This document shows, piece by piece, positions 14,221 to 20,879 of a stretch of 64,000 nt of DNA. The notes beneath the pieces are model-generated. The model was given only the letters and a program-made list of their open reading frames with translations, had not been told where the DNA came from and ran no database searches. Position 1 is the first letter of the stretch. Every line of letters begins with the position of its first letter. Source of the DNA: Croceicoccus pelagius (GTDB lineage: Bacteria > Pseudomonadota > Alphaproteobacteria > Sphingomonadales > Sphingomonadaceae); the NCBI RefSeq assembly GCF_001661915.1, contig NZ_LYWY01000039.1:496001-560000 (forward strand), in the 5' to 3' direction. The translations under genes were made by a program, and so were the position numbers.

Positions 14221-18210
<3,990 letters not shown>

Positions 18211-18281: not shown

Positions 18282-18399
18282 GGAACATAATTCGGGACGC
18301 CCCGTTGGTAGGCAAACGGCGAGCGGGATGCGGCGCGACAACGCGTTGCATCCCCCGCCTGCCACGAAATCCAACCCCCCACCCGAAGGATGCCGAAAC

Positions 18400-18969
18400 A
18401 TGAAAAAGTTCGCGATTGCCCTTGCCTCGGCCGCCACTCTGGCCCTTGCCGCTTGCGGCGGCGGCGCTGACGAAACGACTGTCGAAGACGAAACCGCGAT
18501 GGCCGAGCCGATGGCGGAAGAGCCCGGCACGATTGTCGAAGTTGCGCAGGGCAATGGCGATTTCTCGACCCTGGTGACCGCGGTGACCGCCGCCAACCTT
18601 GGCGAGACGCTTTCGGGCCCCGGCCCCTACACCGTCTTCGCGCCGACCAACGCCGCTTTCGAAAAGCTGCCCGACGGCACGGTCGAGGAACTGACCACCA
18701 ATGACACCGAAAAGCTCGGCTCGATCCTGACGTATCACGTCGTGGAAGGCGAAACGATGGCCGCCGCACTGACCTCGGCAATCGAGGGCGCGGGTGAGGA
18801 AGGCTATACGCTGACCACCGTCAACGGCGGCACGCTGACCGCGAAGCTGCAGGACGGCAACGTCGTGCTGACCGACGCCGCCGGCAACACCGCCACCGTG
18901 ACCGCGACCGACGTCGATGCGTCGAACGGCGTGGTCCACGTGATCGACACGGTGCTCATGCCCGAATAA
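18400..18969 (+). CDS. Fasciclin (FAS1) domain lipoprotein
   Basis: A 189-residue exported lipoprotein. The signal peptide ends in the lipobox LALAAC at residues 15-20, followed by an acidic linker (TTVEDETAMAEPMAEEP). A single FAS1 domain follows, with its two conserved regions YTVFAPTNAAFEKLP and NGVVHVIDTVLMP. FAS1 domains mediate cell-surface adhesion or carbohydrate binding; the ligand here is unknown. The ATG at 18400 has GAAGGA about 10 bases upstream. It is monocistronic, between thiC and a strong terminator. Confidence 0.92.
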   Translation: MKKFAIALASAATLALAACGGGADETTVEDETAMAEPMAEEPGTIVEVAQGNGDFSTLVTAVTAANLGETLSGPGPYTVFAPTNAAFEKLPDGTVEELTTNDTEKLGSILTYHVVEGETMAAALTSAIEGAGEEGYTLTTVNGGTLTAKLQDGNVVLTDAAGNTATVTATDVDASNGVVHVIDTVLMPE

Positions 18970-19050: not shown

Positions 19051-19164
19051 TTTGCCGTCACATTGGCAGAAGACGCCGAGAAAGGCATGGAAGAGATGAG
19101 CAAGGTTTTTAAGGAAACTGGCTCGGAACTCTACATGGATCAGGGTGACCGCGAGCACGATTGA
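19051..19164 (+). pseudogene. Relic of a second thiC 3' end
   Basis: Between a TAG at 19048 and a TGA at 19162 the frame reads AEDAEKGMEEMSKVFKETG then SELYMDQGDREHD. This matches the ThiC C-terminus encoded at about 18121-18183 ([16 protein letters not shown] then EQLYLPEEE), including the Gly-Met-Glu-x-Met-Ser core and the E-L-Y end. There is no start codon or upstream ThiC body. I infer a displaced or orphaned thiC tail left by recombination. The copies differ at many positions, so it is not a recent tandem duplication. Confidence 0.6.
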
Positions 19165-19671
19165 GTGAAATGGCTTCGTATCGCTCTCCAATAGGGTGAT
19201 ACGAAGCCGCACCCGATACGGTTGATAGCGTGCTGAGAGTACGACCCGAGCCCACATAGCGACGTGTTGGGGATAAACCGAATTTGGTTTGCCCAGGACC
19301 CTTGCTTACAACATATTGGCACTGGCATTCTCAGAGTGCCAGTTCGCGCCTTCGTGCAAGAGCTGGTGGCAATTGGGCCCCAACTGGCCATTCAGCCAGC
19401 TAGGGCCCTAGTAAGCCGAACGACGGTGCGTACGTGCCTACATTGCAAGCTCTCGCTCGCACGCATCGTCGCTTCGGTCAACCTGAGATCCTCGGATTTC
19501 GGGCGTATGGAGCTGCGAATATCGTGTTGATGACCAGTGGAAAAAATCTCTCCTCTCCAAAGGTCTTGGAACGGCTGTCCGTGTTGGGGCAGGCGCTCGA
19601 CAATCAGCAGCAGCTTCATGCTTTTGACGGGGGCCTCTTGAAGCTCGGCAAAGAGGCCGAGAGAAAGAGTA
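19165..19671 (+). other. Gene-poor, lower-GC stretch
   Basis: These 507 bases hold no gene I can support. Base composition is visibly lower in G+C than the flanks. Short open frames are present on both strands (for example 19264-19530 plus and 19140-19391 minus), but none resembles a known family or has a good ribosome site. Structure is present: a perfect 11-bp inverted repeat at 19172-19208 and a 7-bp hairpin, ACTGGCA/TGCCAGT, near 19320-19342. Confidence 0.5.
19172..19208. repeat. Perfect 11-bp inverted repeat
   Basis: GGCTTCGTATC at 19172-19182 is mirrored by GATACGAAGCC at 19198-19208 with a 15-base spacer, which itself can pair further through G-U pairs. It starts 8 bases after the thiC relic stop codon, so it could be the old terminator stem of that gene (no T-run follows) or part of a mobile-element end. 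Function is unassigned. Confidence 0.55.
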
Positions 19672-20447
19672 ATGACGATGAGTTCTCATCAGCCGGGGAC
19701 CGATCCCCAGCCCGATCGCGGTCGCGACAACGAGCACCGTCCGGACAAGGGCGGTCGCCCAGTCAAGCCCACCACTTCGGCTCCGAAGCCCACGAAGAAG
19801 CTTTCGGAACTGAATTCCGAGTTCTGGCACGACATTACGCCGCGCTAGGGTTCGAAGATAAAGACGGCCTGTGGGTCGCCGTGTCCAGCATGCCGCTGGG
19901 GCCGGCCGGCCCGCAGGCCAACTTTTTAGTCGGCGTTTTCTTTGATCGTCGTGTCGCCCCACGAGGTTGGGCCTTCTCGAGGCTTGGTCCCAGAGCTGCT
20001 CCTATGGCTCTGAAACATACTAACCTACCGGATGCTTCGATCTGTGCGATGACCAAAGAGGATAATGCGTGGTCACCGAGCGACGGCTTAGTTGCGCTCA
20101 TTGATCACTACTCGATTTGGGCTGTGAAAAGTTGGCATCGCCAAGAATTGGGGTGGTGGCCCGGTCCGCAGTACGGTTTCGGCTCCTATTATCGGAAGCG
20201 CGAATTCGTTGCTAAAGAGTGGTGTGGATGTGGTTCCGGAAAGCGTTATGCAAGCTGCCATCAGACCTTTGATTTCTTAGAGTCCGAGGAGATCGGTAGA
20301 AGGCAATTCAAGGGGGCTTTTAGTTGCGACTACGAGGACCGGGCAGTTCCACAGGCCATTATGGATGCAGCGCGTAGCAGGTGGAAGAACTTGCCTTCTC
20401 TCGTATCGGCGTTCTCACATCGACGGATCGTTTGGGGCGAGCTGTAG
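19530..20447 (+). CDS. E2/UBC-like domain protein with C-terminal SEC-C-type zinc motif
   Basis: The frame is open from 19434; the true start is uncertain. The part from about 19790 on looks genuinely coding. It has the pattern of prokaryotic E2-like (ubiquitin-conjugating fold) domains: HTNLPDASIC with the candidate catalytic Cys codon at 20043, then AWSPSDGLVALIDHYSIWA and GWWPGPQ. After it comes a SEC-C-type cluster, WCGCGSGKRYASCH (20220-20261), and a roughly 60-residue tail. Such E2 domains accept ubiquitin-like proteins from E1 enzymes in bacterial conjugation and defence systems. No E1 (ThiF) or JAB gene is near. Codon use is less GC-rich than neighbours, suggesting transfer. Residues before about 19790 are Arg/Ser-rich and overlap another frame, so a later start or a frameshift is possible. 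Confidence 0.55.
   Translation: MTSGKNLSSPKVLERLSVLGQALDNQQQLHAFDGGLLKLGKEAERKSNDDEFSSAGDRSPARSRSRQRAPSGQGRSPSQAHHFGSEAHEEAFGTEFRVLARHYAALGFEDKDGLWVAVSSMPLGPAGPQANFLVGVFFDRRVAPRGWAFSRLGPRAAPMALKHTNLPDASICAMTKEDNAWSPSDGLVALIDHYSIWAVKSWHRQELGWWPGPQYGFGSYYRKREFVAKEWCGCGSGKRYASCHQTFDFLESEEIGRRQFKGAFSCDYEDRAVPQAIMDAARSRWKNLPSLVSAFSHRRIVWGEL
19672..19848 (+). CDS. Possible 58-residue hydrophilic protein overlapping the E2-like frame
   Basis: An ATG at 19672 (second ATG at 19678), preceded by a purine-rich GAGAGAAAGAG, opens a 58-codon frame rich in Asp, Arg, Pro and Lys (DPQPDRGRDNEHRPDKGGRP). It ends LSELNSEFWHDITPR before TAG at 19846. Within 19680-19790 it looks more protein-like than the E2 frame it overlaps. 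It may be a small partner protein upstream of the E2-like gene, or the true N-terminus of that protein joined through a frameshift. No homologue is recognised. Confidence 0.3.
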   Translation: MTMSSHQPGTDPQPDRGRDNEHRPDKGGRPVKPTTSAPKPTKKLSELNSEFWHDITPR

Positions 20448-20497
20448 TCAGCTATCTCCTGAGAACTGTGGGTGGCTCCGCAGTTTGTTTGTTTAGT

Positions 20498-20593
20498 CCC
20501 TCAAACGCCGGGCGCGGGCCATCCGGCCCGCTTGGCTTCGCCGCATAAGCGGCGGCGCGCGTTCGCGCTTGCGGGTGTCGCTGGCGCGCCCCG
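20498..20593 (+). repeat. Structured inverted repeat, left copy
   Basis: This 96-base unit begins CCCTCAAACGCCGGGCG and aligns almost without gaps to the reverse complement of 20660-20756. It contains hairpins CGGGCC-atcc-GGCCCG, CGCCGC-ataa-GCGGCG and GCGC-gttc-GCGC. With the right copy it fills most of the 432-base gap 20448-20879, in which I see no gene. The layout resembles REP/BIME-type or MITE-like elements. Confidence 0.8.
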
Positions 20594-20659
20594 AACTTCC
20601 GCCGATGCTCGCGGTTGGCAATTTGCCGCGTGGTGCCAGATAGCTTGGTAGCACTAAAA

Positions 20660-20756
20660 CGGGGCACCGAAGGTGACTCCCGCAAGGCCGAACGGCCGCC
20701 CGAGCTTATGCGAGGAAGCCAAGGCCCCCGGATGGGGGCCGCCCGGCGTTTGAGGG
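20660..20756 (-). repeat. Structured inverted repeat, right copy
   Basis: This 97-base unit is the inverted partner of 20498-20593. The outer 17 bases are identical (20740-20756 versus 20498-20514). Inside, the first and third hairpins keep loop and length but change both stem strands (GCCCCC/GGGGGC in place of CGGGCC/GGCCCG; GGCC/GGCC in place of GCGC/GCGC). The middle hairpin is mostly lost. The 66-base spacer 20594-20659 has no evident gene. Confidence 0.8.
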
Positions 20757-20879
20757 CCTAACAAAAATAAAACGCCACTCACCACCCTCCCACGGGCCAC
20801 AAGGACCGCGCTCAACCCGCGGAGCCACCAACCCCTTTTTATTTTCCTACACCCCGCTCCCCATGGCTCATCCTCACGG

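Follow-up and report, generated by a model that had tools for sequence, protein, structure and literature searches.

What could a stand-alone E2-like protein do in a bacterium, and with which partner would it work? This question is raised by a locus of Croceicoccus pelagius (Alphaproteobacteria, Sphingomonadaceae) in a window of 64,000 nucleotides, the whole stretch of DNA that was analysed, with positions counted from its first letter. A sequence-only reading of this window had proposed an orphan E2/UBC-like protein fused to a SEC-C-type zinc motif. The fold and the invariant cysteine of that proposal were borne out, the label "orphan" was not, and two features had been missed: a gene overprinted on the E2 gene and the regulators found at most related loci, the two by which the module is defined. 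The E2-like gene is a real bacterial E2 relative that was previously unlisted, and the conserved partner gene overprinted on it is a more surprising fact than the E2 assignment.

The E2-like protein and its fold

The E2-SEC-C protein (305 amino acids) is encoded on the forward strand, as are all features described below for this gene, at positions 19,530 to 20,447. The start of this ORF matches that of the relatives L033 and L034; the frame is open from 19,404, and an alternative GTG start is located at 19,524. The ORF and strand, the HTNLPDASIC...W...WWPGPQ stretch and the Cys codon at 20,043 were confirmed as they had been described from the sequence, and so was the lower GC content of the island (58% at the E2 gene and approximately 63% in the surroundings). 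A profile of the family recovers the window copy from its own genome with an E-value of 5.5e-93.

The protein starts with a small domain (residues 8-50, 19,551 to 19,679) that was delimited by conservation and by the structural model and has the pattern LxxIGxxLD...VxNGG. In an alignment of 53 sequences, its residues L16, G20, D24, V31 and G35 are invariant or nearly so, and residues 11-40 are predicted by AlphaFold to form a helix, two strands and a helix with a pLDDT above 90. This domain is followed by a linker (residues 51-83, 19,680 to 19,778) that is predicted to be disordered (pLDDT below 60), overlaps the small ORF discussed below and retains an open frame against expectation. The UBC (E2-like) core covers residues 84-215 (19,779 to 20,174) and is defined by an alpha-beta4-alpha arrangement in the model and by structural matches. 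Within this core, the HTN-LPDASI-C motif (20,016 to 20,045) contains His163, Thr164, Asn165 and the candidate catalytic Cys172, which is counted from 19,530 and encoded by the codon at 20,043-20,045. These four residues and Trp181 are invariant across the 53 aligned relatives, including the cysteine for which the sequence-only reading had proposed a conservation check. The eukaryotic E2 motif is HPN-x7-C, of which the HTN-x6-C of the window family is reminiscent.

The core is followed by a SEC-C-type zinc motif (EWCGCGSGKRYASCH; 20,217 to 20,261), in which C232, C234, Y240 and C243 are invariant in the 53 relatives, so that the cysteine cluster noted earlier behind the E2 region is a conserved one. 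The Pfam model PF02810 (SEC-C) scores 12.8 bits against the window protein, with a Pfam cut-off of 20.4, and matches 9 of the 53 relatives, the best with an E-value of 2.6e-4; the SecA SEC-C peptide 1ozb is a weak profile match to the motif. The remainder of the protein (20,262 to 20,444) is a helical region with helices at residues 245-250, 253-264 and 275-282 in the model, in which R271 and P274 are nearly invariant in the same alignment.

The AlphaFold model was made from the family alignment with plasmid-derived rows excluded and reached a mean pLDDT of 87 and a pTM of 0.84. It consists of the small N-domain, a disordered linker (approximately residues 45-80), a helix, four strands, the active-site loop, a long helix, the zinc motif and the C-terminal helices. 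Foldseek alone returned nothing significant for this model. Its top 249 chains were re-aligned for structural ranking, and the best of these was CdnG-E2 of Serratia marcescens (8yjy_B, Z 8.5 over 128 residues), followed by TSG101 UEV domains (Z 8.0) and then by many eukaryotic E2s. The top-ranked matches were mostly UBC-fold proteins with Z values of 5.4-8.5, of which a value of about 8 is moderate. A search of the PDB with the sequence profile of the E2 family gave no E2 match. With this pLDDT and a Z of 8.5 to CdnG-E2, the UBC fold that had been suggested earlier is predicted by the model and well supported, and the conserved motif suggests that catalysis would proceed through Cys172.

Distribution of the family

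The protein is no orphan, as 67 relatives were found in a scan of genome contigs. These are mostly alpha-, beta-, gamma- and deltaproteobacterial, and one is from a contig binned as Flavobacteriales. Relatives of the E2 protein are also present in a plasmid collection, and zero were found in the viral contigs and phage records that were searched. The family is patchy: 298 genomes of the order hold seven strong copies including the window's own, and an eighth, weak match covers the SEC-C part only. A phylum-wide search gave the own copy and one SEC-C match, with nothing further. No model in Pfam, NCBIfam or PHROGs matches the E2 part, and the small protein likewise has no match in PHROGs and NCBIfam. 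Two Bradyrhizobium loci (L098 and L099) carry decayed E2 copies in which the small ORF and the N-domain have been lost.

A conserved gene in the other frame

A small protein of 56 amino acids is encoded in the +1 frame at positions 19,678 to 19,848 of the forward strand, with an alternative ATG at 19,672. Its assignment as a gene is based on conservation, codon pattern, a Shine-Dalgarno sequence and co-occurrence with the E2 gene. The small ORF is present in every intact relative, with an ATG start and 41-60 codons; four intact loci that had been missed by a first text pattern carry it as well, for a total of 71 loci, and every locus without it is a truncated or decayed one. A Shine-Dalgarno-like element at the correct spacing precedes it in 62 of 67 cases. 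The protein, of about 48 amino acids in the family, is disordered, charged and rich in Gly and Pro, with the consensus M..(D/E)R.DPQPDxGKGPPDGKGRPxDxGRPVxPHRSSA and a variable tail. Modelled alone, it has no predicted structure (pTM 0.16). Profiles of the small protein and of the E2 pick out one and the same set among the 298 genomes of the order, apart from one false match of the small-protein profile; this match, in genome G180, is a chance result of low complexity with no adjoining E2 gene.

The substitution pattern is that of a coding sequence in the small frame. In the overlap, 0.296 substitutions per site were found at the third codon position of the small frame, against 0.078 and 0.121 at the other two positions, while the downstream part of the E2 gene follows the usual pattern, with the highest rate at the third position of its own codons (0.204, 0.175 and 0.448 per site). 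The E2 frame is maintained through the same stretch. There are 755 codon junctions at which a T in the third position of the small frame would create a stop in the E2 frame, and a T is present at none of them, with 175 expected from residue-specific usage. When the small protein was randomly recoded with the codon usage of the family, the E2 frame stayed open in 3.5% of the draws, compared with 57 of the 57 distinct natural sequences. The loci were recruited via the E2 core, which makes their selection independent of an open E2 frame in the overlap. Both frames are under selection. The stretch is, as judged from the sequences, a genuine dual-coding overlap in many lineages, and translation of the small ORF is predicted.

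It could be argued that the +1 ORF is a leader for translational coupling or has been conserved as a by-product of the E2 linker, since it lies in a linker region with weak constraint on the E2 frame. Such an explanation is strongly disfavoured and very improbable: it predicts neither the conservation of small-frame amino acids with varying third codon positions nor the survival of the core GRPVxPHRSSA, which is retained despite changes, rich in repeats, in the middle of the protein. A frameshifted or decayed gene was also considered and ruled out, as both frames have been preserved unbroken in every intact relative. A further candidate, that the small protein is related to the Gly/His-rich leader of multi-ubiquitin proteins, was rejected, as no such link was seen at the Multi_ubiq loci of the order.

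In existing annotation, one frame of the pair can be lost. The annotated record of a Rhizobium etli plasmid contains a hypothetical protein of 47 amino acids and a truncated E2, and that of a Sulfitobacter plasmid has no annotated gene under the E2 match.

The overprinted gene remains, in our reading, that of a partner of the E2 protein, and the nature of this partnership can be narrowed down. The C-terminus of the small protein varies and therefore it is not a classical C-terminal-glycine modifier. TSG101 UEV domains bind P[ST]AP peptides, and UEV domains are without a catalytic Cys. The UBC domain could similarly be a peptide binder with the small proline-rich protein as its ligand and no covalent transfer, and this would agree with the TSG101 UEV domains as the next structural matches and with PSAP or TSAP stretches in the small proteins of the window clade. 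However, the Cys at the catalytic position is invariant in the family together with the His and Asn, and the PSAP stretch is confined to one clade, which makes a UEV-like binder clearly improbable.

Regulators and genomic neighbourhood

An upstream regulator is present in 67 of 75 loci, consisting of XRE and ImmA/IrrE (Peptidase_M78) genes in 57 (54 assigned by neighbour cluster and three identified individually) and of a WYL gene in 10. All clustered regulators are on the opposite strand to the E2 gene, in divergent orientation. The eight loci without a regulator are the window clade (the window, L033-L036 and L038) and two decayed copies; the six loci of this clade adjoin housekeeping genes, with the window copy behind thiC. 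CapW and the pair CapH and CapP turn on CBASS, BREX, Pycsar, DISARM and Bub operons after DNA damage (PMC13373217; for CapW, PMC9122588), and CapH+CapP or CapW-type regulators are found with 219 of 544 Bub operons (PMC13373217). From their domains, the regulators of the E2 loci would be functional homologues of CapH/CapP or CapW.

Across the neighbour clusters of the 75 loci, no recurrent E1, JAB, ubiquitin-like, Multi_ubiq or CD-NTase gene was found. The earlier statement that no E1/ThiF, ubiquitin-like or JAB partner is nearby holds at the window and extends to the neighbourhoods of the relatives. In the genome of the window, a single ThiF and a single clear JAB are encoded, both distant from the window, and no Multi_ubiq gene was found.

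The neighbourhoods bear on whether the module belongs to defence. Gabija, a SIR2 Aga-type protein and a PDC-S06 protein are examples of what was observed near some of the loci. That the module carries out ordinary protein modification outside defence, such as in a DNA-damage response, is unlikely, though this alternative deserves more weight than any other considered here. In its favour, CapW and CapH/CapP sense DNA damage, the Bub operons that use them are unproven as anti-phage systems (PMC13373217), and the window copy lies behind thiC without a regulator; it is opposed by the patchy spread (7 strong matches among the 298 genomes), the plasmid copies and the defence neighbours at several loci.

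The regulators have also to be considered in relation to the small protein, which could be a regulator or antitoxin-like partner that silences the E2, with stress freeing the E2 to modify host or phage proteins. The protein is small, disordered, charged, rich in Gly and Pro and strictly linked to the E2 gene, and the repressor-protease switches are similar to those at toxin-antitoxin and immune loci. However, there is no sign of which partner is toxic, and the small ORF has what looks like a stronger Shine-Dalgarno sequence than the E2 gene, which fits an excess of small protein but is also consistent with a substrate. This role of the small protein is considered doubtful.

Several further observations were made at individual loci. 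A ThsB-like TIR gene is located 17-18 nt behind the E2 stop in four sphingomonad loci (L049, L050, L052 and L075), and its product is possibly an effector in that sub-clade. Downstream of the E2 stop, at a distance of 48-103 nt, two deltaproteobacterial loci (L071 and L074) encode a protein of 98 amino acids (MSYLVFCTFDLKNAT...). In L077, the XRE and ImmA/IrrE genes next to the E2 gene closely resemble, by eye, those at the Multi_ubiq locus L024, a possible link between the E2 module and Multi_ubiq systems.

In the window, the C-terminal tail of ThiC is encoded a second time (19,051 to 19,164) downstream of an intact thiC (15,919 to 18,210), between a fasciclin-like gene (18,328 to 18,969) and the E2 gene. 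L036 contains an intact thiC, a HigA-like HTH gene, a second thiC fragment and then the E2 gene, and in L010 and L037 the module is directly behind thiC; the 3' end of thiC looks like an insertion hot spot. Just past the E2 gene, at 20,488 to 20,766, an imperfect inverted repeat was observed whose two 92-nt arms are 77% complementary and separated by 95 nt; it may be a mobile palindromic element. On the reverse strand, a gene for a YadA-like trimeric autotransporter with head repeats extends from 14,221 to about 16,000; the ORF of 1267 amino acids called there continues antisense through thiC.

A proposed mechanism

The reading that we prefer, with a probability of roughly one half, is that a stand-alone E2-like enzyme forms the core of a small, mobile module for stress or defence, with the small protein as its dedicated partner. 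For its induction, independence of an E1, conjugation and role in defence, we infer the following course. The regulator would keep the locus repressed until it is released upon DNA damage or phage infection. A single transcript would then be made, from which the E2 and the small protein would be produced in step. The E2 would then act without a dedicated E1, with Cys172 as the thioester nucleophile, by analogy with the short type II CBASS E2. The small protein would be the dedicated partner of the E2 and most probably a peptide that is bound and conjugated. In its full version, this mechanism would have the stand-alone E2 attach a disordered, non-ubiquitin-like protein from the other frame of its own gene, upon induction by DNA damage or phage and with no dedicated E1; this version is a tentative proposal and rather unlikely to hold in every part. 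An E1 acting in trans, such as a housekeeping ThiF/MoeB, may take the place of E1 independence.

Significance

A family of solo E2s that is mostly controlled by regulators is new to bacterial ubiquitin-like biology, and the overprinted gene to which this one is tied is deeply conserved. It is rare for genes that overlap on the same strand to be kept across several proteobacterial classes with measurable selection on both frames, and gene callers drop one frame of the pair, as in the Rhizobium etli and Sulfitobacter records. With the pair of E2 and small protein, it can be tested directly whether an E2 is able to function with a partner outside the ubiquitin fold.

Comparison with known systems

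Pup of actinobacteria is a short, disordered modifier protein, to which the small protein is comparable as a short, disordered and possible modifier. In contrast to the Pup system, no ligase or deamidase homologue was seen, and the small protein is without a conserved C-terminal Gly-Glu. The Bub, Bil and Multi_ubiq operons (E1, E2, ubiquitin-like protein and peptidase) have a bacterial E2-like component in common with the window family, and regulators of the CapW or CapH+CapP type occur with Bub operons as they do with relatives of the window copy. However, E1, JAB and Multi_ubiq genes are not recurrent in the window family, and the E2s of these operons look unrelated to it. The regulators of the CapH/CapP and CapW/BrxR types are divergent to a solo E2 module here rather than to an operon, and are absent from the window clade.

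The closest comparison is with the E2s of CBASS operons. The short type II CBASS E2 (CdnG-E2 of Serratia marcescens; PDB 8yjy, 8hsb) has the UBC core and the absence of an E1 in common with the window family and is, as cited in PMC12804361, a precedent for E2 activity without an E1 (Yan et al. 2024, doi 10.1038/s41564-024-01684-z). E2s from CBASS operons of the same order (L103, next to a cyclase, and L100, behind a nucleotidyltransferase-like ORF) share the layout of an E2 followed by SEC-C. The PADLOC models of CBASS E2s give weak matches in many members (best E-values of 3e-4 to 0.06, depending on the model), which in the window protein cover the SEC-C part only, and a search of the order with the PADLOC E2 family was flooded by SEC-C matches, with four real E2s. 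When the family was compared with CBASS E2s directly by profile, the alignment was limited to SEC-C and a short segment preceding it; for this reason, and because the cyclase is missing, the window family is not filed as a CBASS E2. Compared with the short type II CBASS E2, the conserved neighbourhood of the window family is without a CD-NTase or effector, and the family adds the N-domain, the linker, the HTN before the Cys and the overprinted small protein.
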